A DNA stretch of 35,040 nt from a virus, in the IMG/VR virus record IMGVR_UViG_3300020463_000058, positions 1 through 35,040 of that record; one strand, 5' to 3'. The notes beneath the pieces were generated by a model. That model was given only the letters and a program-made list of their open reading frames with translations. It was not told the DNA's origin and made no database searches. A program made the translations under genes and the position numbers. Shown piece after piece: positions 1 to 34,155 of the stretch; the stretch's first letter is position 1; every line of letters begins with the position of its first letter.

Positions 1-123
1 AAAAACGAAGCTAAAGCAATCTTGTTTTTAGGACAATACTCTCAAAACAAAGACTTACTAGATGAAGTAGTTAAGACGCTAGATTTTTTAGAAGAATTTA
101 ACAAAAAAAAGGAGGAAGCATGA
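1..123 (+). CDS. C-terminal part of a small phage protein (gene cut by window edge)
   Basis: An open frame runs from base 1 to a TGA at 121-123, giving 40 residues rich in Lys, Glu and Leu and ending in K-K-K-E-E-A. It has no recognised family. It joins in frame to the incomplete gene that starts at 34996, giving a coherent 55-residue helical protein, so this is probably the 3' part of one gene split by linearisation of a circular genome. Its last codons contain the Shine-Dalgarno of the next gene, and the stop overlaps the next start (ATGA). Confidence 0.6.
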   Translation, partial: KNEAKAILFLGQYSQNKDLLDEVVKTLDFLEEFNKKKEEA

Positions 124-293
124 AAACCAAATGTAAAGATGCAGGTTTTTTAACAGAAGCAAGTTTAAATAAAATTAAAAAAGAAGTAGGTAAGCGTAAA
201 TTAATTATTTATGGTTCAACTGGTGTTGGCAAAACTACTTTTGCAAGTAAGAACCATAAAACAGTATTTATAACAACTGAGGAGAAAGCATGA
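120..293 (+). CDS. 57-residue Walker-A-only mini P-loop protein, truncated relative of the AAA_24/Sak4-like ATPase
   Basis: The ATG at 120 overlaps the previous stop and has an AGGAGG-type ribosome site. A short Lys-rich helix is followed by a beta strand and a perfect Walker A loop (G-S-T-G-V-G-K-T, residues 32-39), then a second strand ending in I-T-T-E. This is the first part of an AAA_24-type RecA fold: the full-length phage ATPase at 5231-6007 has the equivalent G-V-A-G-I-G-K-T loop and Q-T-E strand. There is no Walker B, sensor or rest of the core, so it cannot be a normal ATPase. It may be a decayed duplicate whose reading frame and ribosome site persist, or a small nucleotide-binding or decoy peptide. 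Its stop overlaps the next start. Confidence 0.65.
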   Translation: MKTKCKDAGFLTEASLNKIKKEVGKRKLIIYGSTGVGKTTFASKNHKTVFITTEEKA

Positions 294-535
294 GTAATAT
301 AGTAAAAGTAGATTGGTGGAATGAAGAGTTAGATATTTACTATCGAAAAATGGGCTATCCTAAATGTGTTTGGAAAGATAACGAAGGTTTACCTTATGGC
401 ATTTACTATTATTTTGATATAGAAAGCGACCCTTTAAATTGTGAGTGTTATTGGTATAAGACAGTTGAAGAAAGAGACAAAATATTTTTAAAAAATATAG
501 AGAACGAAGCTAAATATTTAAAGGAGGAAGTATGA
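290..535 (+). CDS. Small hypothetical protein, Trp/Tyr-rich
   Basis: 81 residues with no recognised family. The N-terminal half is aromatic-rich (WW at 9-10, and a Y-Y-Y-F run at about 39-42), and the C-terminus is a charged helix ending K-E-E-V. The start overlaps the previous stop (ATGA) and the stop overlaps the next start (ATGA). It belongs to the translationally coupled early operon. Its last codons hold the AAGGAGG ribosome site of the next gene. Confidence 0.7.
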   Translation: MSNIVKVDWWNEELDIYYRKMGYPKCVWKDNEGLPYGIYYYFDIESDPLNCECYWYKTVEERDKIFLKNIENEAKYLKEEV

Positions 536-777
536 AAAATGAAGAACTAGCATTTGATTTAACTATTAATAGTTTAAAAAGTTATGCGAAAAAATGTACC
601 AAAGATAAAGATAAAAAAATGATGAACCCTCTTGAGGGAACTTATCTTATGTCTAATTCGTTGGCTACTGCTCTATTGTATAAAGCAGAAGACCATGAAG
701 AATATTGCAAAGAAATAATAATTGAAGCAATAGAAGACGCTTACAAAGAAATTAAAGAAGCAAAAGGAATAAATTAA
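532..777 (+). CDS. Small helical hypothetical protein
   Basis: 81 residues, largely helical and charged, with an excess of Lys and Glu and no recognised domain or membrane segment. A strong AAGGAGG ribosome site lies just upstream, inside the previous gene. It is co-transcribed with the surrounding small genes, which in phages commonly encode host-takeover or accessory peptides; that role is only inferred from position. Confidence 0.7.
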   Translation: MKNEELAFDLTINSLKSYAKKCTKDKDKKMMNPLEGTYLMSNSLATALLYKAEDHEEYCKEIIIEAIEDAYKEIKEAKGIN

Positions 778-779
778 CA

Positions 780-947
780 ATGGTTAAATCAAAAGATGAG
801 ATACAAACAAAGTATTTACAAAAGGTGTTAAAAGAAGGATTAAAAAGTGTTCGTGTTATTGTGCCTAGTAATAGGGTTGAAGAAGTGAAAAGCTATGCAA
901 AAGAACTTAGAGAAGCCCATAGGGTAATAGGAAAGGACAATGAATAG
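780..947 (+). CDS. Small hypothetical protein, possibly ribbon-helix-helix-like
   Basis: 55 residues: a basic helix, a short strand (V-R-V-I-V-P, about residues 25-30), then a helix (N-R-V-E-E-V-K-S-Y-A-K-E-L-R). A strand followed by an amphipathic helix recalls small phage DNA-binding or regulator peptides, but the assignment is tentative. It starts three bases after the preceding stop, has only a weak ribosome site and probably relies on coupling. Its 3' end overlaps the next gene by eight bases. Confidence 0.6.
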   Translation: MVKSKDEIQTKYLQKVLKEGLKSVRVIVPSNRVEEVKSYAKELREAHRVIGKDNE

Positions 948-1206
948 TCAGGAACTACAATTATTTATAGAGGATTTATTACCTCATATACAAGAGCAGA
1001 ACGTAGAAGAATACTTTGACAATCTAAAACGTAAAATTGGTTTTCAATTGATAGGTAGTGAAAGAGTAGAGATAACGCCAGAAGAAAAGAATATTGCTGA
1101 AGCATTAATGAGATATGTGAGAAGCAATTTAACTACTAGATTTCAAAGTTTAAGTATGACGGAAGACAATACCTCCCCCCCAGTCTTTCGTCATACGCTT
1201 AAATAA
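940..1206 (+). CDS. Small hypothetical protein, last gene of the early plus-strand operon
   Basis: 88 residues, mostly helical; no family recognised. The ATG is preceded by an AGGA-like sequence and overlaps the end of the previous gene. The C-terminal 20 residues are polar with two adjacent prolines. It ends at 1206, immediately before a dyad at 1205-1220 and the convergent minus-strand replication operon. Confidence 0.65.
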   Translation: MNSQELQLFIEDLLPHIQEQNVEEYFDNLKRKIGFQLIGSERVEITPEEKNIAEALMRYVRSNLTTRFQSLSMTEDNTSPPVFRHTLK

Positions 1207-2239: not shown

Positions 2240-4107
2240 TATTCCCATTCTATTGAATTAAGAGTGCCTTTACCCTTTTCGTCTTCTAATAATTCTAATT
2301 TAAAACCTCGTCTTACTAAAGTTTTTATGTTGGTATCAGCTTCGCTATTACTTTTGACTAAAGCAGATTTAACGACTGCCATGCGATTATATTCAATGCC
2401 TTCTTCAAAACAAATCTTTTCCGTATTCTCTTCCGAGTCTAAATACATAACTGTTACAGCTCTATGAGAGTCCGTTAGAGCTGTACTACCTCTTATTGAA
2501 GACCGAGCATTTAATACTGAGTTAGTATTACCCTCAGAAATAGCTGATTTATTAAGATGGTGTATAGACAATACGCTAATACCAAATTGATTGCTCAAAG
2601 ACGCACAAAACTGAGCATACATTTGAGCTGTTTGACTGGTGTTTAAATCTCCTGAAACGAAAGATTGAATAGGGTCAATAACCAACAGTTTTAAATCTGG
2701 TATCTCCGACAAACTCTGTCGCAACTCTTCAGCATCTTCAGTTATATGCAAACCATTTTTAGAGTCTTCTTTAACAAAGATTAATGGCTTACCTAAGTTA
2801 GCAATAGACATAACGTAAGTGTCGTATTCACACTTTAAATAATCTCTATTTGGTTGTATCAAACTTAATCTTCTGGCTATTTCATCACTATCATCTTCAG
2901 CAGAGAGAATACAGCAATTGCCTTGTTGCATTATTTTATTACCAAGATATTTGCCATTGCCTTTATTTACATCTAAACACAGTTGCAGAGTCAAACCTGA
3001 TTTACCAATACCACCTACTGAAGCTAACAAAGATATTTTAGAAAGCTCCATAGTTTTTTCTACCAACCATTCTCTAGGAGGAGGGTCTTCCCTAAAATTT
3101 TTAATTGAGTATTGTTGTAATTTAAAACCTTGATTAAGTATTTCGCTTTTTACTGCACTTGGTCCAAGCTCTTGAAACATATCATTATAGTCTCCAAGTT
3201 TAGATGGTATTCTTGACCTTGCATTGCTAAGACTTGCACATATCTCTTTGCTTCTTTGTTCTCCAATGCCTGACTCGTCATGGTCAAAACAAATCAAAAA
3301 TTCAGCATTGCAAAATTTTCTTATATTTTCTAATGCTGACTGTCCAAAATTTGCAGAAAAGACACATATTGTCGGAAGCCCTGTACTCTCAAACACACTT
3401 AAACAAGTAGCCAACCCTTCCGTTACAGCAATAGTTTTTATGTTGCTCCAATCGTCCCAACCCAAACCTACTGTATAAATTCCTGACTTAACCTCAGAAG
3501 CAGAGACAAATCGTTTATTCTTTGTGGTTATATATTGAAGACTTCTCAATTCCTTGATTGTATTTCTGGTAGAATACACAGGAACAAGTAAAGATTTATT
3601 TATTTGTTTCAACCCATATACATTTTTTAACCCTTTTTTTGTGAGATACTCATGTTCAGCACATTCTCTAGCATTATTAAACCTGTTTTGCACTTCTCTG
3701 GCGGTCTCGTCATGCCTTTTCTTCCTTTCTTCCTTGCTTTTTTGGAGGTTAAGCTCAATCTTTTTATTTAGTTCAGCTTGGTCTTGAACTGATAATGTTT
3801 CTAAGGAATTTGAATAAAATTTCCATTGCTGATTAGTACGCCAATTACCATAAACACATATAAAATGTCCGTCTGTTTCGTGATAGCTATACCAACCGCT
3901 AGTTTCTCCTGCTTTATCTGGGCGTGAAACTCCTGAAGTTGCATCAACGCCACATCTAATAACTTCTCCGCTTGTATCAATATTATTAACTCGCAATCCG
4001 TCTGACTGCATTTGCTCAATCAAATCATAAATATCTTTATTTGATTGTTTATATTTTACTGTTTGTGATTGTGAATGACCTGCATAAATATCTTTGAAGT
4101 CAATCAT
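2239..4107 (-). CDS. Bifunctional primase-helicase (Toprim + RecA-fold)
   Basis: 622 residues. An N-terminal substrate or zinc-finger-like region (G-W-Y-S-Y-H, about 71-76) is followed by a Toprim core with E230-G and D275-H-D277, then G-D-Y-N-D at 305-309. A RepA/DnaB-like RecA motor follows, with Walker A G365-G-I-G-K-S370, Walker B L-V-I-D478, and S-I-H-H-L-N near 517. This fits a phage replicative primase plus hexameric helicase that unwinds DNA and primes lagging-strand synthesis. The first eleven residues (M-I-D-F-K-D-I-Y-A-G-H) match the N-terminus of the SSB-like protein at 4470-5090. With no phage polymerase found, it would work with the host replisome. Confidence 0.9.
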   Translation of the reverse strand: MIDFKDIYAGHSQSQTVKYKQSNKDIYDLIEQMQSDGLRVNNIDTSGEVIRCGVDATSGVSRPDKAGETSGWYSYHETDGHFICVYGNWRTNQQWKFYSNSLETLSVQDQAELNKKIELNLQKSKEERKKRHDETAREVQNRFNNARECAEHEYLTKKGLKNVYGLKQINKSLLVPVYSTRNTIKELRSLQYITTKNKRFVSASEVKSGIYTVGLGWDDWSNIKTIAVTEGLATCLSVFESTGLPTICVFSANFGQSALENIRKFCNAEFLICFDHDESGIGEQRSKEICASLSNARSRIPSKLGDYNDMFQELGPSAVKSEILNQGFKLQQYSIKNFREDPPPREWLVEKTMELSKISLLASVGGIGKSGLTLQLCLDVNKGNGKYLGNKIMQQGNCCILSAEDDSDEIARRLSLIQPNRDYLKCEYDTYVMSIANLGKPLIFVKEDSKNGLHITEDAEELRQSLSEIPDLKLLVIDPIQSFVSGDLNTSQTAQMYAQFCASLSNQFGISVLSIHHLNKSAISEGNTNSVLNARSSIRGSTALTDSHRAVTVMYLDSEENTEKICFEEGIEYNRMAVVKSALVKSNSEADTNIKTLVRRGFKLELLEDEKGKGTLNSIEWE

Positions 4108-4498
4108 TACCTACCCCATTACTTGCTTTTGCCTGTTCGCAATCAAGATAATGGAGAACTAATGACTCAAAAAATTTCTTTCTATCTTCTGAATTCCATT
4201 TATGTATTTCGTAAGTTTTATGTTTCTCTGCAAACTTTAAATAATTTTCTTTAGTAAGTTTTATTGCATAATCTACGCTTTCATAATTTAAATGTGCTGT
4301 TCTTTCTAAGCGTTCTCCTCGCTTTATTCTTTCTCTTATCTTTTCTATATGTTCCATGTTTTTACACACCGCATAATATTTATTATCTATTTCTAATAAT
4401 ACCGCCCCCGCAGGAGACAAACAATGTCCACAAAGGGACGGCTTATTTCTTTTTGTGTCTAGCAAAAAATTAGAAAGGAACTTCAGTATCAGGAACAA
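4100..4498 (-). CDS. Small Cys-containing replication-operon protein
   Basis: Up to 132 residues, between SSB and primase-helicase. A C-G-H-C pair near residues 23-26 and a further Cys near 45 suggest a partial zinc-binding N-terminus; the rest is charged helices. There is no ATG at the 5' end. The frame opens with TTG at 4498 inside the SSB gene, or TTG at 4465 just after the SSB stop, so the start is unresolved. It overlaps the primase-helicase start by eight bases. Function unknown. Confidence 0.6.
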   Translation of the reverse strand: MFLILKFLSNFLLDTKRNKPSLCGHCLSPAGAVLLEIDNKYYAVCKNMEHIEKIRERIKRGERLERTAHLNYESVDYAIKLTKENYLKFAEKHKTYEIHKWNSEDRKKFFESLVLHYLDCEQAKASNGVGND

Positions 4499-5090
4499 AC
4501 TTTGCTGTTTCTTCTTTAACTGGAGCTTCTATTTTTTGCTCTACAGGTTTAGCTTCAGCAGTTGGAATTTGTACTGTTGGTTGTGAACCAACTGAGTCCC
4601 AATTTTTACCTGCATAACCTTCATCTATTTCTAAAACAGAACCTTCTGTTCCGTCTGCCTTGATATACTTTCTGTTTTTCATCAAACAAGTAGCACTCTT
4701 TCCAATTAATGAGTCTGAGTTGCCACTCATTGCATCTTGTAGTGAAAGACCCATAGCCATTTGCATAGCTAGTGTGCAATCTTTACCTGCAATAGCAGTA
4801 GTATGATTTTTAGGGTCAGACACACCTTCTTTATCATAAGAAATAATGTGTTGTGCTGTTTGCGTAGCCATACGCATTGAGCTATCTATTTCCTGAACCT
4901 CAAAAGTAAATTCAAGTCTGTCAGAAATTTTACCTGCATTAGCTCCGCTTTGTGTAACCATGTCAGATAACAACTCACACCCTGCAAAAGCAAATGTATA
5001 TCTACCTTCAGGATATTCTATGTAATTAGAACTTCCTTCAGAACCTTCAGAAGAGTCATGCCCTTCATATATATTTTTAAAATCAACCAT
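4470..5090 (-). CDS. SSB-like single-stranded-DNA-binding protein
   Basis: 206 residues. The central part is strand-rich and consistent with an OB-like fold (E-Y-P-E-G-R-Y-T-F-A-F-A; R-L-E-F-T-F-E-V-Q-E-I). A low-complexity Pro/Glu/Lys linker follows, and the protein ends in D-T-E-V-P-F, the acidic-tip-plus-P-F ending typical of bacterial SSBs that recruits partner proteins. The N-terminal V-D-F-K-N-I-Y-E-G-H is nearly the same as that of the primase-helicase. The ribosome site GAGGT lies seven bases before the ATG. It probably coats ssDNA for the helicase and the Sak4-like ATPase. Confidence 0.75.
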   Translation of the reverse strand: MVDFKNIYEGHDSSEGSEGSSNYIEYPEGRYTFAFAGCELLSDMVTQSGANAGKISDRLEFTFEVQEIDSSMRMATQTAQHIISYDKEGVSDPKNHTTAIAGKDCTLAMQMAMGLSLQDAMSGNSDSLIGKSATCLMKNRKYIKADGTEGSVLEIDEGYAGKNWDSVGSQPTVQIPTAEAKPVEQKIEAPVKEETAKFVPDTEVPF

Positions 5091-8234: not shown

Positions 8235-8310
8235 GAGTCCGTAGCTCAGTTGGTAGAGCATACCCCTTTTAAGGGTAGGGTCCTCGGTTCGAACCCGAGC
8301 GGACTCACCA
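8235..8310 (+). tRNA. tRNA-Lys (anticodon TTT)
   Basis: A complete 76-nt cloverleaf. The acceptor stem GAGTCCG pairs with CGGACTC, followed by an encoded CCA. The D arm is GCTC...GAGC. The anticodon stem TACCC/GGGTA closes loop CTTTTAA with TTT in the anticodon position, and the T arm is CTCGG-TTCGAAC-CCGAG. It lies about 340 bp before the integrase, the usual place for an attP whose core copies a host tRNA gene. It may supply a lysine tRNA for this AAA-rich genome, be the attachment site, or both. Confidence 0.97.
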
Positions 8311-8346: not shown

Positions 8347-8476
8347 AAACAAACAAAATTGTGCAGGTTAATTTTTGGCTTGATTACTTGTGTTTTAAAT
8401 GGAAAAAAATTAGAGGACAACTCCCTTAAAAGAACTTAATTTTTTAAAGTATGACTGTCAATATTTTTTTAACTTC

Positions 8477-8505
8477 TTGATTCTAAATATTTATTGTGCT
8501 ATTTT
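8477..8505 (+). promoter_or_regulatory. Candidate promoter for integrase
   Basis: TTGATT at 8477-8482 and TATTTT at 8500-8505 are separated by 17 bp, a sigma70-like arrangement, 27 bp before the small gene that is coupled to the integrase. The region is AT-rich, so chance matches are likely. The 8311-8531 stretch otherwise holds only the 26-bp repeat copy 1 and no convincing gene. Confidence 0.4.
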
Positions 8506-8531
8506 ATTCTAATGAATAGACAAGAGAAGCA

Positions 8532-8651
8532 ATGAGTTCTAACAATAAACGTCCCAAAAGCGTCCCAAAAATTACTACTATAAAAGAACACATGGATTTA
8601 ATGGACCAAATAAAAAATCCAAAAACAAAAGTTAAAAGGAAAAAAAAATGA
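8532..8651 (+). CDS. 39-residue basic leader protein coupled to integrase
   Basis: The ATG at 8532 has a weak AGAAG site, and the stop overlaps the integrase start (ATGA). The peptide is very basic (Lys/Arg-rich C-terminus) with no recognised domain. Repeat copy 2 (8546-8571) lies inside its coding sequence. It could be a genuine small protein or a leader that sets integrase translation. Confidence 0.45.
   Translation: MSSNNKRPKSVPKITTIKEHMDLMDQIKNPKTKVKRKKK
8546..8571 (+). repeat. 26-bp direct repeat, copy 2
   Basis: It differs from copy 1 (8321-8346) at two positions and lies 225 bp away, inside the small gene before the integrase. It contains two CGTCCCAAAA units. See copy 1 for the likely role. 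Confidence 0.6.
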
Positions 8652-9763
8652 CTGACAAAATAGTAGCTGATAAATTATTTAGCAATTTAAAAATCAGAAC
8701 TGTTGATAATAAAAAATCCTATCAGTTGATTTGGCATAAGGCAGGTGTCAAGAAGAAAAAAACAATGCCTATCAGATATGAAAACGAAAGTATAGTTTCT
8801 ATAAGAAAGAGAGCTATTAAAATATTTAATGAATTACAAGACATAGAAGAAGGCATAAAGCTACCTGTTAAACCCAAAATAAAAATTACTTATAAAGAAT
8901 TATTTAAAGACTATATAAATGATTGTGAAGTTAGAGATGTTGCTATTGAAACTATTAATCAATATCAATCTTTGTATAGCAAATACGTTGACAAAGAACT
9001 TGGCAACACCATTGTTAAAGATGTAACAAGAGCAAAAGTAAAAGAAATTTTTAGAACAATTACAAAAGATACAAAGTACCAAGCGAATAAATATTTAAAA
9101 TTCATGGTGGCTTCTTTAAATTTTGCTATTGATGAAGAAAAATATGACATTGAACATAATGTCGCTACAAATATTAAAGGGAATCCAGAAAGAAAACATA
9201 CTACAAGTTACACCGAAGAAGAAAAATTTATTTTGTTTGACAGACTTAATCAATTAGAAAACTTTAGACCTGCAAGAATTAGGTCTATAGGTTTTATTTG
9301 GTTATTAATTTTAACAGGAGCAAGAAAAGGAGAAATTGCTAATGCAAAAAGAAGTCAAATAAAAGGTAACACTATTGTTATTCCTTTTAATGAATATAAA
9401 ACAGGATTAAAAACAGGCAAGGATAGAGTTATTTATTTATCAGAACACGCTATGCAAATTATAGATAAATTAAAAGAAGTTTTACCTGACCAAGAAACTA
9501 TTACAGGAATTAAGTCTCCTCAAAAGACTTGGGATATGATGAGAAAGCAATGTAATATTCCACATATAAGACTGCATGATTTAAGACATTCTTTTGCTAC
9601 TTATTGTTTATCAGCAGGTTTAGGGCATAGACAAGTAGGCACATTATTAGGGCATCAAAGTCTTGCATCTATGCAGAGATACGGAGAAGTTATCGCAGAT
9701 GTTTCTAAAAAAAATGTGCAATTAGCAAATGATTTAATTTTGCCTGAGAGCTTGAATAGTTGA
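8648..9763 (+). CDS. int: Tyrosine-family site-specific integrase
   Basis: 371 residues. The N-terminal arm-binding and SAM-like core-binding domains (about 1-175) precede the catalytic domain. Catalytic residues are visible: R226 in T-G-A-R-K-G-E-I, H310-D-L-R313-H, H336 in G-H-Q-S, and nucleophile Y345 in M-Q-R-Y. Length and order are those of phage P2/lambda-type integrases that recombine attP with attB, here probably a tRNA gene. The start overlaps the stop of the small upstream gene. The 3' end runs 30 bases into the convergent nuclease gene on the other strand. Confidence 0.97.
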   Translation: MTDKIVADKLFSNLKIRTVDNKKSYQLIWHKAGVKKKKTMPIRYENESIVSIRKRAIKIFNELQDIEEGIKLPVKPKIKITYKELFKDYINDCEVRDVAIETINQYQSLYSKYVDKELGNTIVKDVTRAKVKEIFRTITKDTKYQANKYLKFMVASLNFAIDEEKYDIEHNVATNIKGNPERKHTTSYTEEEKFILFDRLNQLENFRPARIRSIGFIWLLILTGARKGEIANAKRSQIKGNTIVIPFNEYKTGLKTGKDRVIYLSEHAMQIIDKLKEVLPDQETITGIKSPQKTWDMMRKQCNIPHIRLHDLRHSFATYCLSAGLGHRQVGTLLGHQSLASMQRYGEVIADVSKKNVQLANDLILPESLNS

Positions 9764-10171
9764 TTTTAAACTTTGCAAAGAATTAATATTTTTCATTTCT
9801 TCGTCAGGTACAGTAAGTTTTTTCTTTTTAGAAAAAGGTACAAATTTAATATTGTTATAAGGTAAACATACCAAAGCATACATATCTATTTCGTTTAAAC
9901 CCTCTGCTCCATAGTTTCGGTCTTTAGTATGCTTTCCTCTTCGTAAATCAAAATTCCAACCTACTCTTTTAAACTTACCTTCTTTCTTGTATAGGCGTTG
10001 TTTTGTTTTAGTTTTAACTTGTACTCTATAAACAATATTGTTGTATTCAAAAACAATATCTGCATGGCTTCCATGAGGAATTATACTAACTAAATCACTA
10101 CCAAATAAGCACAAAGAAGCTGCTGTAAGATGCTCTCCACATCTACCGATTGCCTCTGTTGTTCTGGACAT
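9734..10171 (-). CDS. PD-(D/E)XK endonuclease (PDDEXK_5-like), end of late operon
   Basis: 145 residues. E13 in G-R-C-G-E-H-L-T-A, D38 in H-A-D-I-V-F and Q51-V-K53 form the PD-(D/E)XK active site in the order seen in PDDEXK_5 (I-SspI-like) and Holliday-junction-resolvase-like nucleases. It is translated from a TAATG overlap with the large ejection-protein gene, so it is made late. It could cut host or competitor DNA, resolve DNA before packaging or be injected. Its 3' end overlaps the integrase 3' end tail to tail. Confidence 0.8.
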   Translation of the reverse strand: MSRTTEAIGRCGEHLTAASLCLFGSDLVSIIPHGSHADIVFEYNNIVYRVQVKTKTKQRLYKKEGKFKRVGWNFDLRRGKHTKDRNYGAEGLNEIDMYALVCLPYNNIKFVPFSKKKKLTVPDEEMKNINSLQSLKSTIQALRQN

Positions 10172-13100
10172 TACCTGAATTGATTTATTTGTTTATCTTT
10201 AAATTTATTTAATAAATCTTTATCTCTTGATAAAAGAATTTGTTTAGCTGCGTCTTGAAAAGTTCTCATAGTGTCTTGTAAAATTTTATTTTTAATAGCT
10301 TTTGAACCATTCAAATAACCAGAACTTTTTATAATTCTTTCTAATGCTCGTTTTGAACCTAGTTCTTGTTGAATTAATAATAGTCTTTCATATTGATTAG
10401 GATTTAATTCAATTCCGTTTACTTCTCTTCTAGGCATAGAAGGATAAAATCCAACATTCATAAACTCATTATAAACAGGGTCATTATTTAGAGCTGAACT
10501 TCTTATAGGCGATAATGGACCTGCTCCAAACAAACCGCTATCTGGGGTTCTTAGCGTACCAAATATATCTCGTCTTGCTGCAAACTGTTCTGATTGTCCA
10601 ATTCTTGCTAAAAAGTTATCTGTAACATTTCTAACGTCTCTTAAAACAGGGTCGTCTAATTGTGATACATGAGCAAATACTGTTGGCACAAATGAACCTG
10701 TAAATCTTTGCACAAACCTATCTCCATATCTTGACGGGTCAGCAATAGTTTGAATAGCACTAGAAATACCAGATAAAAATGTTTTGTTTGTTAGGTTGTT
10801 AGTAACTGTGCCTGTTAACATCATAAGCAGTTTATCCATTTCTAATTTATCTGCTTCATTAGAGCTGTCAGAGTTATAAACATAGTTTCCTACTTCTTGT
10901 AAGTCAGCAGCAATACCAAATAAAATTCCTACAGGCTCAAATCTATTGTATGAATAATATTCATTACCAATTTTTATTGAATAAGGTCGCCAACCTGTAG
11001 CCATCATAGTACGTCTTTCGTTTAAATCTTTAGGTCCTTGTCCTGTAATTAAGCCACCTCCTGCTAAGAAACCTACAGTTAACATTGTTGAAGAACCAAA
11101 TAACAATCTGCCTAAAACTTCATCTCTTTCTGCCCCGCCTTTCGCTAATTTTTCTTTAAATTCTTTTGCCATAAAACCAAAAGGAGTTCTTTCTCCTGCA
11201 TACTTAACAATGTTTACAGGCGTTCTAACGAAAGGAAGAAGAAATCGCATAGCAGGGTATCTATTAATAAATGATTGTACTCCCTTCCCGTCTTTGCCAA
11301 GCTCTCTTGTAAATGTTTGATAACGCCCAACATCTGCTGCTTTGTAATCCATTGTCTTACCAAGCGGAGAATCTACTTTATTTGCATAATGACCTTTTAC
11401 AAGTTCGTTGGTTCTTTTCCAAGCAGCGTTACCTTTCAAGCCTTCTTTGTTTGCTTTACGCATAGCTTGTCCGTATATTTCTTGTCTATACGCTGCTGCT
11501 TTTAAACCTGTATCAACCCCAACTAAAACTCTGCTAGGAGTTCTTATAGTGTCTCCTACTAAATCAAACTCTCCAACTTTTAATTTACTTTTAATTGATT
11601 TTTGTTTGTTTAATTCTATTTTTGTTAAATCATCTACAAAAGCATCTGGGTTTTTAATTGATTTTAAAGCAATTCCCATACCCTCAATAGCTCCTGCAAT
11701 CGTACCAAACAATCTTGCGTTAGCTTCATTAAAGGTTAAAGCCTCTGGGTTTCTAGTTAATTTACCAATTGCTGCTCCTGTATAAAATTCTAAAGGACGC
11801 ATACCTGCTGTTAAAACACCACTTAAAAGGTTAACAAGTTGTGTTGAAGGACTTGATAATAAACCATTAATCCATACTTCAGTTAACATGTCTTTAATGG
11901 TTGGTCTATGTGCTTCTTTTAAATAATCAACCATAGCTTTAGTATCGTCAAACTCTGATAGTCTTGCTGCTAAAACATCTGGGTCTAGGTTAGTATTTTT
12001 TAAATCTTCTAATACTTTGCGTCTAATTTTTTCTGCTATTTTTTGATTAGGGGCTTTAGCTGATTCCTGTAAAGCTCTTTGAGTTCTTCCTGATTCCGCA
12101 ATTACTCCTGATTCTTTTGCAGATAGTCTATTTACTATTTCTTGAAATTCTGAAAATTTTAATTTGTCTGTTTCATTTACACTTCCTGATAGTCTTCTAG
12201 CATTGTAATCTTTTGCCACATCAAATAATTCTAATTCTGCGTCTCTAACAATTTGTCTTACCGCAGTTATATCTTCAGCGTTTAATGATGTTCCTTGTTG
12301 AATATTTAAAACATCATCAACTGTCCAACCCCTGCCTTTTGCAGCAGCATGAAGTATTGTGCCATCACTACCAAAAGCAACTCTACCTCTTCTGGCGTTC
12401 CAAAATCTTTCATTTTCATCTGCTTGTTGTTGCACAAAAGATTTTTGACTTTTGTTAAAGTCTTTTTTGTCTAAATTAACATTACCTGCAAAACCTTCTC
12501 TGTTAGGAGGAGCTGTACCTTCTGCTACCTCTTCGTCTCTAAATTTTCTTGCAGAATCAATGTTTGTGTCTTGTATAATTGTTCCCCCGTCCTGTTGAGA
12601 ACCTGTAGCAGTACCTTCTTCATCTGGCACTTTTCTATATTTATTTTTTATGCCTCTTAATCCTGCAAAAATACTATCAAAAGCAACACCAATACCAAAT
12701 CCTTCTACCGCCATTTTTAAACGTCCTTTTGCAACAGAATCATTATCATCTGCTTCAAGCCAATCAGTAAATTGGTTAGGAGCTATGTCTTGTATAAGGT
12801 TTGATAATCTTTCTTCGTCTGGACTAAAAGCAACTTGTTCTGCTGCAACTCCAATTGTTCCTGCTTTAGCAGATTTACCGACAAATGTTGTCGGAGCTTT
12901 AAGTTTGTTTAGTTTGCTAATTGAATTTATTAATTTAACACCGCCTGTGTAGGGAACAGCAAAACCTATAATGTCTCTAGCAATAGAGCCAACCATATTA
13001 GTAGGTTCGGCAACTTCAGGTAAGTCTGGTAAATCAACATTTCCAAAAGTTACATCTCTTAATAAATCTGATGCTCCTTGCAGGGTATCTCTTCCTGCCC

Positions 13101-13344
13101 CAACAACAGTTCTATAAGTGTTATCAAGAAAGCCTACGTCTTCGTCTGTAGGTGTATTTTGTTGAGAGGAGTTTTTAGTTTTAAATTTCTCAAAATAGTC
13201 TTCTTTAAAATCAGAGTTAGAATCTAAATTAGGCTCGGTTTTAAATTGTTCAAAATATTTTTCGTCATTATCAAAATTAATTTTATTAGTATCATTAGTT
13301 TTTGATTTAAACTTATTGAAATATTCTTCATTTAGTTCTGACAT
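10171..13344 (-). CDS. Large internal virion / DNA-ejection protein
   Basis: 1057 residues, the largest protein here. It has Ala/Gly-rich predicted helices and several hydrophobic patches (for example around 125-140 and 740-765), as in podovirus ejection proteins that form a conduit across the envelope. The segment R-Y-P-A-M-R-F-L-L-P-F-V-R-T-P-V-N-I and the preceding long helical region are typical of large polyvalent phage proteins. The N-terminus carries three repeats of a charged -Y-F-x-x-F-K- motif within 55 residues. Position after two smaller virion proteins supports the role. Enzymatic activity was not identified. Confidence 0.8.
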   Translation of the reverse strand: MSELNEEYFNKFKSKTNDTNKINFDNDEKYFEQFKTEPNLDSNSDFKEDYFEKFKTKNSSQQNTPTDEDVGFLDNTYRTVVGAGRDTLQGASDLLRDVTFGNVDLPDLPEVAEPTNMVGSIARDIIGFAVPYTGGVKLINSISKLNKLKAPTTFVGKSAKAGTIGVAAEQVAFSPDEERLSNLIQDIAPNQFTDWLEADDNDSVAKGRLKMAVEGFGIGVAFDSIFAGLRGIKNKYRKVPDEEGTATGSQQDGGTIIQDTNIDSARKFRDEEVAEGTAPPNREGFAGNVNLDKKDFNKSQKSFVQQQADENERFWNARRGRVAFGSDGTILHAAAKGRGWTVDDVLNIQQGTSLNAEDITAVRQIVRDAELELFDVAKDYNARRLSGSVNETDKLKFSEFQEIVNRLSAKESGVIAESGRTQRALQESAKAPNQKIAEKIRRKVLEDLKNTNLDPDVLAARLSEFDDTKAMVDYLKEAHRPTIKDMLTEVWINGLLSSPSTQLVNLLSGVLTAGMRPLEFYTGAAIGKLTRNPEALTFNEANARLFGTIAGAIEGMGIALKSIKNPDAFVDDLTKIELNKQKSIKSKLKVGEFDLVGDTIRTPSRVLVGVDTGLKAAAYRQEIYGQAMRKANKEGLKGNAAWKRTNELVKGHYANKVDSPLGKTMDYKAADVGRYQTFTRELGKDGKGVQSFINRYPAMRFLLPFVRTPVNIVKYAGERTPFGFMAKEFKEKLAKGGAERDEVLGRLLFGSSTMLTVGFLAGGGLITGQGPKDLNERRTMMATGWRPYSIKIGNEYYSYNRFEPVGILFGIAADLQEVGNYVYNSDSSNEADKLEMDKLLMMLTGTVTNNLTNKTFLSGISSAIQTIADPSRYGDRFVQRFTGSFVPTVFAHVSQLDDPVLRDVRNVTDNFLARIGQSEQFAARRDIFGTLRTPDSGLFGAGPLSPIRSSALNNDPVYNEFMNVGFYPSMPRREVNGIELNPNQYERLLLIQQELGSKRALERIIKSSGYLNGSKAIKNKILQDTMRTFQDAAKQILLSRDKDLLNKFKDKQINQFR

Positions 13345-13357
13345 TTTTTAATCATTA

Positions 13358-14509
13358 TTATAAATCAATACCTGCTGCTACTTGTTCTGACACACTTAAT
13401 CCACCTGTAAGTGATAACAACTGTTTATCTGCTTTACTTAAATTTAATTTTTGTAAATTTTCGTCAGAAAATATATCGTAACCTGTTTGTTGCTTAATAA
13501 CATCAAAGGCTTCTTGAGGTTTTATTCCTTGTTTAGTAATTAAATCACTATAAAGGTCTTGAATTTTATAACCGCCATAATCTAAAGGTAAGTCATTAGC
13601 TTTTAGATTATTAATAATTGGTTGTGCTGCTGCTACTATTTGGTCTTGTCTTGCTTTAGTATCTATAACGCCATATTCAGAAGACAATCCTGCCATAAAA
13701 TCACTATTTTTCAAAAGATTTGGACTTCTTTCTCTTAGTTCTTTAAATCTTGGGTCAGTTAAAAATAATTCTTGACCTGCTCTTATGCTGTTAGCTCTAT
13801 CGTTTCTTTCTGCTTCTGCTTTTTCTCTAGCAAGTTCATTTGTAATTCTAGTTTGTATGCCCTCTTGAACATTTCTACCGCTAAATCTGTCATCTGCCAT
13901 TGCTAATGCTTCAACAATGCCTTTATATTTTGCACTATCTCTTTTTTTTAAAGAAGCTGCTCTTTCTTCAGGAGTCATTGCTGCAAGTTCTTCAGGAGGC
14001 AAATAATCTCTTCCTCCTATTTGTGCAAAGAAATTTCCAATTTTAGTTCTGTCGTCTTTATAAGGGTCATCTTTCTTTTTGTTTTTATCTTTGTTTAAGT
14101 CTAAACCCATTCTAAGTTGGTCATAACCAGAATTAGGATTATTGATATTTTGACCTGTAATTTGACCGCCATTAAGAATAGAATCCATTGCATTATAATT
14201 TAAACCACCTGATTTAAATTTTTCATAATTAGCTATATATTCATTTGCTGTTTTACCTTGCAAGTCTATTGGCATATCTGGTTGCATAAAACTTACTTGA
14301 TTAGAAATAGCAGAATCTTTGGCTATTGATTCAGCAGCTATTTCTTCTTGCGTTTTTGGTATATATTTAGGACCGCTTCTACCTGCTCTCCCTACAGTAT
14401 TAAAATCAGGATTTAATTTGTAATTAGGGTCGTTAGACTTGTCTAAACCAAGAACCTCAAATAAAGATTTAGGATTATTATTATTTCTTCGGTTTCTTCT
14501 ATTAGCCAT
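13358..14509 (-). CDS. Internal virion protein (ejection module)
   Basis: 383 residues with an Arg/Asn-rich start (M-A-N-R-R-N-R-R-N-N-N-N), Gln/Asp/Lys-rich helical segments and no recognised enzyme domain. AGGAGG sits seven bases before the ATG. Composition and position between the 364- and 1057-residue proteins match the second ejection protein of P22/T7-like podoviruses. Function assigned by context. Confidence 0.6.
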   Translation of the reverse strand: MANRRNRRNNNNPKSLFEVLGLDKSNDPNYKLNPDFNTVGRAGRSGPKYIPKTQEEIAAESIAKDSAISNQVSFMQPDMPIDLQGKTANEYIANYEKFKSGGLNYNAMDSILNGGQITGQNINNPNSGYDQLRMGLDLNKDKNKKKDDPYKDDRTKIGNFFAQIGGRDYLPPEELAAMTPEERAASLKKRDSAKYKGIVEALAMADDRFSGRNVQEGIQTRITNELAREKAEAERNDRANSIRAGQELFLTDPRFKELRERSPNLLKNSDFMAGLSSEYGVIDTKARQDQIVAAAQPIINNLKANDLPLDYGGYKIQDLYSDLITKQGIKPQEAFDVIKQQTGYDIFSDENLQKLNLSKADKQLLSLTGGLSVSEQVAAGIDL

Positions 14510-14510
14510 A

Positions 14511-15605
14511 TTAACCTCCTATTTTCCCCCTAGCCCAACCACCAAATAAATCTGCCCCAAAACCTATAGCGTCCCCTAGACCTAGTTTTTGTTTAGATGT
14601 TCTTGTGCCTTCAGTATTAATTAAAACAGGTACTCCCGATATTGCACTTGTTGAAGCTGCAAGGTTTGTATATGGTTGATTTTGTTTTCTCATAAATTCA
14701 GAATAATCATCATCTAATTGTTGTTGAGCCATACCTCTTTGCAAAGCTCCTGACCTTGCTAAATCGTCTGAAGCCATATATTGAGTATTTAATAAATCTG
14801 TATATGCCCCATAATCAAAGTTTCTTTTAGATTCATCTAAATCAGCTTGTTTCCCCATAAATAAATTTCTTGAATCTAAATTATCTCTTGCAATGTCAAA
14901 GGCGTATTTATTACTGTCGCTTAATAAATTGTAATCCATTAAACCCATGTCTTTATCTGAAGCAGCATTAAATCTTGATTCCGCAGAAGCTAAATCCATG
15001 TCGCCTCTAGCTTGAGCCATTGCGTCTTGATAGGCACTTTGTCTTGCGTCTGTTACAAAATCAGCAGCTTGTTCATTAAAGTTTTTATTTGTTTCAGCTT
15101 CTAATATACCCGACCTAGAACCTCCATACGCATTACTGCCTATAGCTGCATCTTGGTCTGACATTAAAGACATTTGCCTATATTTATTTATGTCTCTTAA
15201 TCCTTTATCAATTACTTGGTCCGTATATGGATTCATATAGTTGTTCAAATTTCTATCTAAAATACTGCCAGTATTTACATTTCTAATATCTCTAACATTG
15301 CCTCTGCCAAAATCTTGATTAACTGATAGTTCATTTGGATTACCCATATCTACTCTGTTTTGAGTTTCATCAAACATTCTTGCAACAGGATTGTAACCCG
15401 TTGTAGTGTTATAAATATTTCTTGAAGTTCGTTGTGATGCTAATTCATCTGGGGTAAATGGAGCAACTGTTTCTCCTGTATATGGGGCAAAAGGAGTTTC
15501 ATTAATTGCCATACCCTCATTTAAAAGATATTCAAAACCTTTCTTTTGCCATTCAGGAAATTCTTGTTTTGCTGATTCTCTTACTACTGTTTTGCCTTTA
15601 CTCAT
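14511..15605 (-). CDS. Internal virion / DNA-transfer protein
   Basis: 364 residues. The middle contains N-P-Y-T-D-Q-V-I-D (about 128-136) and G-S-R-S-G-I-L-E-A-E-T-N (about 162-173), features of a recurrent podovirus virion family often annotated as internal or DNA-transfer protein. Long Ala/Gln-rich helices follow, and the C-terminus is a short Gly-rich hydrophobic segment. A Shine-Dalgarno-like AAAGGA precedes the ATG. It probably leaves the virion early in infection. Confidence 0.65.
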   Translation of the reverse strand: MSKGKTVVRESAKQEFPEWQKKGFEYLLNEGMAINETPFAPYTGETVAPFTPDELASQRTSRNIYNTTTGYNPVARMFDETQNRVDMGNPNELSVNQDFGRGNVRDIRNVNTGSILDRNLNNYMNPYTDQVIDKGLRDINKYRQMSLMSDQDAAIGSNAYGGSRSGILEAETNKNFNEQAADFVTDARQSAYQDAMAQARGDMDLASAESRFNAASDKDMGLMDYNLLSDSNKYAFDIARDNLDSRNLFMGKQADLDESKRNFDYGAYTDLLNTQYMASDDLARSGALQRGMAQQQLDDDYSEFMRKQNQPYTNLAASTSAISGVPVLINTEGTRTSKQKLGLGDAIGFGADLFGGWARGKIGG

Positions 15606-32876: not shown

Positions 32877-32918
32877 TTGTTTACATCTAGGATAGATTTC
32901 TATAATATCTGTCCTAGA
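32877..32918 (+). promoter_or_regulatory. Promoter and dyad operator of the ArdA operon
   Basis: TTGTTT (32877-32882) and TATAAT (32901-32906) are 18 bp apart (17 bp if TGTTTA at 32878 is the -35). An inverted repeat, TCTAGGATAGA (32886-32896) and TCTGTCCTAGA (32908-32918), matches at 10 of 11 positions and straddles the -10, so a dimeric repressor bound there would block polymerase. Strong AAGGAGGT follows before ardA. Confidence 0.65.
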
Positions 32919-32950: not shown

Positions 32951-33475
32951 ATGACTAACAACAAAGACGAGAAAATAAAAATATATGTGGCTTCTTTAGA
33001 AGCATATAACTCAGGTCGAATGGTTGGGGACTGGATAACCCCTTGCGATTATTCAGATTATGAAAGTTTTCAAAATGCTATTAAAAAAGCTACTAAGAAC
33101 GCAGACGAGGTAGCTGTTCACGATTACGAAGGAATTAATCTTCATACTGAGTATCCAGACTTTGAAAAACTTTATGAATTTGCAAAAGGTTTAGAGGATA
33201 GCTATTTAGATAACGAGGTTATTTTCGCTTTTGCAGAACATACAGGAGAAGACCCAGAATTTGATTTAATAGCTAAAGCAGAAGATTATTATGTAGGAAC
33301 TTTTGAAAACTTTAGAGAATATGCAGACGATTTTGCTGATGAAATGCTTGGACAACAAAAGGATAGTTTTTTAACCAATTATTTTGATTACGAAAGTTAT
33401 GCTCGAGATTTAGAGTACGATTTTATTGTATGTCATGTATCAGGTTATAACGTGGCAATATTTAACAATTGTTAA
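32951..33475 (+). CDS. ardA: Antirestriction protein ArdA
   Basis: 174 residues, highly acidic. The start I-Y-V-A-S-L-E-A-Y-N-S-G-R-M-V-G-D-W-I (11-29) and the C-terminal block L-T-N-Y-F-D-Y-E-S-Y-A-R-D-L, Y-D-F-I-V-C-H-V-S-G-Y-N-V-A-I-F are ArdA signatures. ArdA mimics bent B-DNA and blocks type I restriction-modification enzymes, so the incoming phage genome survives. AAGGAGGT stands nine bases before the ATG. First gene of the plus-strand early operon, under the dyad-operator promoter. Confidence 0.95.
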   Translation: MTNNKDEKIKIYVASLEAYNSGRMVGDWITPCDYSDYESFQNAIKKATKNADEVAVHDYEGINLHTEYPDFEKLYEFAKGLEDSYLDNEVIFAFAEHTGEDPEFDLIAKAEDYYVGTFENFREYADDFADEMLGQQKDSFLTNYFDYESYARDLEYDFIVCHVSGYNVAIFNNC

Positions 33476-33492
33476 AGGAGGTAAGGAAAACA

Positions 33493-33569
33493 CTACTACT
33501 GAAGACGCTAATGCAGAAACACCCTTTTTTCCTCACATTGTTAAAGTTAGAAAAGAGGGTGTCTAGTAG
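33493..33569 (+). ncRNA. Hammerhead-like self-cleaving ribozyme, type I (copy 1)
   Basis: Stem I is CTACTA (33493-33498) with TAGTAG (33564-33569). The core C-T-G-A-A-G-A (33499-33505) is followed by a short stem II (GC / GC around TAAT), G-A-A-A (33516-33519), and stem III of 13 pairs (33519-33531 with 33550-33562, one G-U). Then comes G-T-C, with cleavage expected after C33563. Order and bases are those of hammerheads (CUGANGA, GAAA, NUH). A caution is the C-A mismatch at the first stem II pair, usually G-C. It lies in the leader of the gene at 33615. Confidence 0.8.
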
Positions 33570-33593
33570 AGGGAATAATCCCAACACACAAAA

Positions 33594-33610
33594 GCCAAAA
33601 GGCAGGAGGC
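33594..33610 (+). promoter_or_regulatory. GCC-tetraloop-GGC hairpin and Shine-Dalgarno (leader 1)
   Basis: GCC-AAAA-GGC (33594-33603) is followed at once by AGGAGG and the ATG at 33615. The same element follows the second ribozyme. After cleavage it would be close to the new 5' end and may hold the ribosome site open or protect the end. Confidence 0.65.
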
Positions 33611-33614
33611 AGAA

Positions 33615-33890
33615 ATGCAAAATATTAAAGATGTTCAAATAGAACAAGCCAGACACCCTTTAAGGAATAATGTTCCGTCTTGGTTGTTAGGACTTTTTGA
33701 AAATTATGATGGCGTTCATTTAACGAACCATGAAGACGAAACAGAAAAAGCAGACTTATTAATTTGTGCTGAAGCTGTTATAGACATAATAAATAATGAC
33801 TTTACAGGGTACAACGTAGAAGTTTCAGCGAATGATTTAGTTGATTGCTATATACATGACAGTATTTGTAGCCCTTTAAATGCAGGTTAA
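33615..33890 (+). CDS. Small hypothetical protein behind ribozyme 1
   Basis: 91 residues with an acidic and Asn-rich composition (N-H-E-D-E-T-E-K-A-D), with strands and helices but no recognised family (N-N-V-P-S-W-L-L-G-L-F-E-N-Y-D-G-V; E-V-S-A-N-D-L-V-D-C-Y). Start defined by the strong AGGAGG at 33604-33609. Its acidity and ArdA adjacency suggest another anti-host-defence factor, unproven. Confidence 0.7.
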   Translation: MQNIKDVQIEQARHPLRNNVPSWLLGLFENYDGVHLTNHEDETEKADLLICAEAVIDIINNDFTGYNVEVSANDLVDCYIHDSICSPLNAG

Positions 33891-33894
33891 ACCA

Positions 33895-33957
33895 GTCTAT
33901 CTGAAGAAGTTTAATACAGAAACGCTTTATTTTAGGAGGAGATAAAGCGTCATAGAC
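33895..33957 (+). ncRNA. Hammerhead-like self-cleaving ribozyme, type I (copy 2)
   Basis: Stem I is GTCTAT (33895-33900) with ATAGAC (33952-33957). The core C-T-G-A-A-G-A (33901-33907) is followed by short stem II (GT / AC around TTAAT), G-A-A-A (33919-33922), and stem III ACGCTTTAT with ATAAAGCGT (33922-33930 / 33942-33950), nine perfect pairs. G-T-C puts cleavage after C33951. Stems I and III differ in sequence from copy 1 but keep pairing (covariation), and the core is unchanged. An A-A mismatch replaces the first stem II pair. The 11-nt loop of stem III contains AGGAGG. Confidence 0.85.
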
Positions 33958-33962
33958 AAAAA

Positions 33963-33978
33963 GCCGAAAGGCAGGAGA
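33963..33978 (+). promoter_or_regulatory. GCC-GAAA-GGC hairpin and Shine-Dalgarno (leader 2)
   Basis: GCC (33963-33965), GNRA tetraloop GAAA, GGC (33970-33972), then AGGAGA and the ATG at 33985. Homologous to leader 1 element at 33594-33610. Confidence 0.65.
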
Positions 33979-33984
33979 CAAACA

Positions 33985-34155
33985 ATGAAAATAACAAACT
34001 ATAAAAATTACAAAATAAGAGAAAGTAAAGGCACAAAACGTATTGCTAAATCAATATTAATTGAAGAGCCAAACGGAGATATTTTACTCTTGATTGCTAA
34101 TAAACCTAAAACTGTAAAAGAAGCTAAACAATATATAGACAAAATTGGAGAATAA
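33985..34155 (+). CDS. Small hypothetical protein behind ribozyme 2
   Basis: 56 residues with strand-helix pattern: I-T-N-Y-K-N-Y-K-I-R, then I-L-I-E-E-P-N-G-D-I-L-L-L-I, then a C-terminal helix. No family recognised. Start defined by AGGAGA at 33973-33978. Not seen as a long frame because of its size. Confidence 0.7.
   Translation: MKITNYKNYKIRESKGTKRIAKSILIEEPNGDILLLIANKPKTVKEAKQYIDKIGE

Follow-up and report, generated by a model that had tools for sequence, protein, structure and literature searches.

Introduction

Hammerhead ribozymes cleave their own RNA to leave 2',3'-cyclic phosphate and 5'-hydroxyl ends, and nearly all of them carry a G10.1-C11.1 pair at the start of stem II. Tandem hammerheads in phages, some flanking ardA, cleave in vitro and in vivo (E. 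coli), and a role in mRNA processing was proposed for them (Perreault et al. 2011, PMC3088659). The systems named in the sections of that paper used here are A. tumefaciens, A. caulinodans and C. scindens, with ardA contexts in A. tumefaciens and Legionella. In the same sections, mispairs at 10.1-11.1 were filtered out of the search, an active natural U10.1-U11.1 is reported, and U.U is the best-tolerated mispair in the mutational work cited (PMC3088659). In the haloviruses HF1 and HF2, a transcript end was mapped at a hammerhead before an early gene (cited in PMC3088659).

Here we analyse two hammerhead-like elements, W1 and W2, in a viral record of 35,040 bases, all of which is hereafter the window. 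They share with RF00163 type I the stem order, full catalytic core, A15.1-U16.1 and NUH cleavage triplet. They depart from it in three features: the mispaired 10.1-11.1, a stem I of strictly 6 bp with an A.A-plus-A cap, and a loop II of the form UNAAU. As with the prophage hammerheads of Perreault et al., several elements on one transcript flank single phage genes, beside ardA and near integrase genes (PMC3088659), but those studied here belong to a marine phage lineage, number up to 14 per record and keep a fixed spacing of stop codon, ribozyme and ribosome site. HHphage of HF1/HF2 is likewise a viral hammerhead just before an early-gene start codon with a transcript 5' end near the cut site, whereas its viruses are an archaeal-host group and it has core insertions instead of a stem II mismatch (PMC3088659).

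Tandem hammerheads flanking phage genes, including ardA, and the mRNA-processing proposal are thus already known (PMC3088659), and the window repeats the ardA link (PF07275). New are the density and extent of the arrays, the gene-junction geometry, the poor Rfam coverage and a recurrent A.A subclass, which is present here and is not described in the consulted text of Perreault et al., where mispairs were filtered out except for the active U.U (PMC3088659). A search of open-licence literature found no papers on marine-phage hammerheads; an earlier description elsewhere is possible. We consider it likely that W1 and W2 are type-I self-cleaving hammerheads between genes of one polycistronic transcript, splitting the operon mRNA of a marine, probably temperate tailed phage into gene-length messages.

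Two elements with a type-I hammerhead layout

The window was searched with a structural descriptor (stem I of at least 5 pairs, stem II of at least 2, stem III of at least 4) and with R1, a covariance model built from 20 relatives without the window sequence. The elements and their parts are as follows.

33493-33569, + strand: W1, hammerhead element of type I layout (descriptor match; chance test; R1 14.6 bits, E 0.12)
33499-33505, + strand: W1 core CTGAAGA, positions 3-9 (from the sequence)
33506-33515, + strand: W1 stem II, with a C.A mismatch at 10.1-11.1, two G-C pairs and loop TAAT (from the sequence)
33562-33563, + strand: W1 U16.1-C17, predicted cut after C33563 (from the hammerhead layout)
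33895-33957, + strand: W2, type I hammerhead element (R1 41.0 bits, E 5.4e-9; descriptor match)
33901-33907, + strand: W2 core CTGAAGA, positions 3-9 (from the sequence)
33908-33918, + strand: W2 stem II, with an A.A mismatch at 10.1-11.1, two pairs and loop TTAAT, the A.A subclass form (18 elements, 14 loci)
33950-33951, + strand: W2 U16.1-C17, predicted cut after C33951 (from the hammerhead layout)

Both elements lie where an earlier note on this DNA had placed them, and they are the only descriptor matches in the window. Each has the parts described there: a 6-bp stem I, the identical core (CUGAAGA as RNA), a short stem II, GAAA, a long stem III and GUC. Read 5' to 3', W1 is CTACTA / CTGAAGA / C GC TAAT GC A / GAAA / stem III / TC / TAGTAG, and W2 is GTCTAT / CTGAAGA / A GT TTAAT AC A / GAAA / stem III / TC / ATAGAC. 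The earlier count of 13 and 9 pairs in stem III stands for W1 only when A15.1-U16.1 is included (12 pairs otherwise), and becomes 11 for W2. The core C3 U4 G5 A6 N7 G8 A9 / G12 A13 A14 / A15.1-U16.1 / H17 is complete in both copies, three stems surround it with stem I open, and the predicted cut positions agree with this layout. The pair at 10.1-11.1, normally G-C, is C.A in W1 and A.A in W2. Single-sequence minimum-free-energy folding misses stem II of W2, although stems I and III do form, and folding was left out as evidence for the elements.

Chance does not readily produce such elements. Across 13,340 first-order Markov windows (935 Mb, both strands) the descriptor gave 49 weak matches, none of which combined a stem I of at least 6 pairs with a stem III of at least 9. 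Applied to all loci fetched by then, it gave 310 matches on the forward sequence and 0 on the reversed sequence.

Relatives, covariation and covariance models

Two relatives by terminase (88% and 76% identity), whose genomes share the layout of the window, have four hammerheads and one, respectively, at the corresponding place. Searching with the pattern of a single stem I led to 9 contigs, and with that of a single stem II to at least 120 stretches. In all we collected about 250 distinct elements in 125 loci, though the loci are not all separate and a few of the elements, for example in L233 and L141, could be chance matches within coding sequence. Related records contain 3-14 elements each, on the same strand and between genes. 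Stem I is exactly 6 bp in this family, with G-C as pair 6 in 92% and A.A at position 7 in 92%, and loop II is mostly UNAAU.

In an alignment of 20 sequences of the canonical class, 15 of 17 pairs change on both sides and 99.7% of cells are paired; the covariation score is 0.893 against 0.184 for shuffled sequences, and every slid register fails. Because the descriptor itself selects for some pairing, a scan with the A.A pattern, which required none, is less circular evidence: stems I and III were complete in 14 of its 47 matches, and stem III was interrupted in 4 others that shared this stem I. The stems thus differ in sequence while their pairing is kept, all three covarying among relatives, as expected of the conserved RNA structure that had been proposed from the two copies. 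Relatives also keep every core base, and RF00163 recognises relatives, which supports the type-I identity. Judged from these comparisons, the predicted fold and its conservation are well established.

Ordinary intercistronic hairpins (RNase III sites, attenuators or terminators) that resemble a hammerhead core by chance are scarcely credible as an explanation. Stem III is a long hairpin, and the early mRNA of T7-type phages, which is processed by RNase III, provides a precedent. However, CUGANGA, GAAA, the UH bases and the exact 6-bp stem I around the junction are invariant across the family and have no role in such elements; this reading is already contradicted by the conserved core, and the simulated windows gave nothing comparable (0 of 13,340). 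No terminator-like site was found in the region, and a terminator or attenuator was rejected.

A covariance search had been proposed as a check, and its outcome was divided. R1 found W2 clearly, whereas the score of W1 is in the background range, a result of its divergent stem II; the core, stem I, stem III and position of W1 are intact. On the sequence evidence W2 is therefore secure by two methods (descriptor and covariance model) and W1 by one. With R1, three records gave 14, 13 and 11 copies; Methylophilales phage MEP301, a Flavobacterium elemo phage and Pelagibacter phage Jormungand gave a single copy each, those of MEP301 and Jormungand being canonical. Carriers among cultured phages fall into three lineages: Methylophilales MEP301, Flavobacterium elemo phages and Pelagibacter Jormungand/Ran.

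At the gathering level, Rfam gave no match in the window and missed nearly all relatives. Searched directly, RF00163 (Hammerhead_1) did not find W1 or W2 even at E ≤ 1. In the array record G006 the same search gave 12 matches, 10 of them at E < 0.01 and one above the cut-off, and this supports family membership independently. The miss in the window points to a limit of the model rather than to the chemistry, because canonical relatives fall below the cut-off as well. The RAGATH-1 hammerhead (RF03152) did not match the window elements. It has a sub-threshold likeness (34.4 of 56.3 bits) to a fifth hammerhead-like element of relative L092 (7584-7655), which has a longer, bulged stem II and scores 21.3 bits with R1.

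DNA BLAST of the region against isolates gave nothing useful. A BLAST match to Staphylococcus phage PSU4 (H26) was rejected: it lacks the hammerhead core and is a plain hairpin followed by T. Elsewhere, L130 (record G001, 8351-14669) has 14 hammerheads in about 6.3 kb, where the genes tested are mostly of unknown family, and L259 has three (3751-4835); its contig is assigned to a Streptomycetaceae MAG and is probably phage sequence that was misbinned.

The mismatch at 10.1-11.1

The mismatch noted at the first stem II pair is present in both elements, but its two forms differ in recurrence: A.A is found in other phages, and C.A in at most one other possible example. Among 113 neighbours not chosen by the seed patterns, 10.1-11.1 is G-C in 99, has an extra base before the G-C in 7, and is A.A in 3 and U.U in 2; the remaining two, both C.A, are copies of W1.

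The A.A class comprises 18 elements in 14 loci, W2 included, built of A.A, two pairs and a five-base loop that is mostly UNAAU. Its stems covary on their own, with 97.6% of cells paired (mismatch left out) against 64.5% when shuffled, and some phages have both A.A and canonical members (L107 and L185 are examples). BLAST of isolates with an A.A element gave nothing convincing (best E 0.6). Its recurrence with covarying stems, and the precedent of an active natural U.U (PMC3088659), make A.A a plausible natural hammerhead variant. Both A.A and C.A may slow the reaction, since U.U is the best-tolerated mispair in the mutational work cited by Perreault et al. (PMC3088659). The A.A subclass probes to what extent a hammerhead can do without the best-conserved pair of stem II.

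Watson-Crick pairing of loop II with the stem I flanks was not above that of shuffled sequences, and such a pseudoknot was rejected. Strong conservation of both the UNAAU loop and the A.A/A flank of stem I is what a non-Watson-Crick contact between loop II and stem I would call for.

The C.A of W1 is nearly unique. A scan for a C.A subclass gave 51 contigs, almost all without stems, and its sole possible W1-like element is in L308 (3396-3438), with a stem II identical to that of W1 (CGCTAATGCA), a 6-bp G+C-rich stem I and a 2-bp stem III. The match in L322 looks like a coincidence in repetitive sequence.

A rather doubtful but serious reading is that W2 is active and W1 has decayed or become very slow, serving now mainly as a stable mRNA hairpin. 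The near-background R1 score of W1 (14.6 bits, E 0.12) fits this, as do its C.A mismatch, its loop II of 4 nt and its C-G at stem I pair 6, which is nearly always G-C in the family. Neutral decay, however, would soon break the core, the cleavage triplet, the 6-bp stem I with its A.A cap and the 12-pair stem III, all of which are intact, and the identical stem II recurs in the possible L308 element.

Position at gene junctions

The surroundings of the two elements contain the following features.

32880-32908, + strand: possible sigma-70-type promoter ahead of ardA, TTTACA-17-TAATAT as scored (weak)
32951-33475, + strand: ardA-like antirestriction gene directly upstream of W1 (PF07275 ArdA, E 6.6e-26; phrog_2059, E 3.6e-26)
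33571-33582, + strand: small hairpin GGGA-ATAA-TCCC in the leader that W1 cleavage would leave (fold of 33564-33617)
33594-33608, + strand: predicted hairpin GCC-AAAA-GGC joined to an AGGAG ribosome site (fold; same module in L088/L089 and L092/L096 leaders)
33615-33890, + strand: 91-aa gene behind W1 (74% identical relatives in two other phage contigs, L088 and L089)
33963-33977, + strand: predicted hairpin GCC-GAAA-GGC joined to an AGGAG ribosome site (fold)
33985-34155, + strand: 56-aa gene behind W2 (open frame with ribosome site)

The genes at 33615 and 33985 are, as had been described, open frames with ribosome sites (AGGAG) just 3' of the elements. A protein search found no relatives of the 56-aa protein. 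The record has terminase, portal and internal virion protein genes on the minus strand and small genes at its right end on the plus strand; the 'early' status of the genes behind W1 and W2 is suggested by their place in a small-gene cluster that includes ardA and runs divergently to the structural genes. The region has about as many promoter-like sites as chance predicts (10 against 9.1), and a TATAAT overlaps the scored TAATAT, 2 bases upstream.

Across the family, counting from the start of each element, the median end of the upstream stop codon is at +1 nt, and the distance from cut to next start codon has a median of 26 nt (10th-90th percentile about 19-40). The arrangement of stop, ribozyme and start holds for 83% of elements against 11% of random positions, so that placement at gene junctions, as read from the sequences, is firm. 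In the window the stops lie about 17 nt (W1) and about 4 nt (W2) upstream of the elements, and the predicted cuts 51 nt (W1 leader) and 33 nt (W2 leader) before the start codons.

It is unlikely, though worth weighing, that these are real hammerheads acting as regulators, in which ribosomes completing the upstream gene would sit on stem I and the core and cleavage would occur only at low upstream translation, coupling operon decay to translation. In about half of the family the upstream stop does lie inside stem I (70 of 221), in the core UGA (33) or beyond (27), an overlap that may only reflect compact genomes and the UAA/UGA within the motif. Against it, the stop is just upstream of or exactly at the element in 88 of 221, and both window stops are upstream. 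Coupling to translation could apply to those elements that the stop overlaps, and less readily to the two in the window.

The preferred reading remains processing of the operon mRNA; cleavage, end chemistry and the effect on mRNA we infer. Each element would fold after transcription and cut its own RNA at GUC. The upstream message would end in a folded ribozyme with a 2',3'-cyclic phosphate, and the downstream message would begin with a 5'-hydroxyl and a short leader in which a hairpin is joined to the ribosome site. This would probably serve to give gene-length mRNAs with protected ends, each decaying and translated separately, and perhaps shielded from 5'-monophosphate-dependent decay. The elements thus suggest that these phages divide their own messages, one gene to a piece, with no enzyme involved.

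Hammerheads can also rejoin the ends they cut, and a gene lying between tandem copies could be released and closed. That these ribozymes cut and re-ligate RNA into circles or spliced products is nevertheless highly improbable here: array members stand at many successive junctions, not in pairs, and such products were sought in tandem phage arrays and none found, according to the part of Perreault et al. used here (PMC3088659).

Hammerheads at many successive junctions of some phages, at fixed spacing to stop and start codons, bear on the purpose of bacterial and phage hammerheads, and this placement together with the three cultured lineages makes the mRNA-processing idea directly testable. We are evenly divided on a broader proposal: that one widespread marine phage group processes its messages generally by dense hammerhead arrays (up to about one per gene junction), and that the A.A subclass within it is a working hammerhead, with the mismatch stacked on the core G.A pairs and a reduced stem II, which goes unnoticed by standard models and filters.

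Judging by the small plus-strand genes at the left end (window 1-1206), the break in the record may fall within the right-end gene cluster, and further elements may therefore be missing from it. A tRNA (8235-8307; anticodon loop CUUUUAA, probably Lys) adjoins a tyrosine integrase gene (8648-9763; PF00589), and the phage is therefore probably temperate with a tRNA attachment site.

A ribosome-site-like sequence, AAAGGAGG (33474-33481), overlaps the ardA stop close before W1 and is not followed by an ATG. In L088 (about 3090-3170 and 3510-3610; same in L089), the relative of the 33615 gene is preceded by an apparent TTGACA-type promoter and the same hairpin-ribosome-site leader (GCCGAAAGGCAGGAG) instead of a hammerhead, and that module is repeated at a second, downstream gene. 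Because the module stands there behind an apparent promoter and not a ribozyme, the hairpin-ribosome-site is a separate module.
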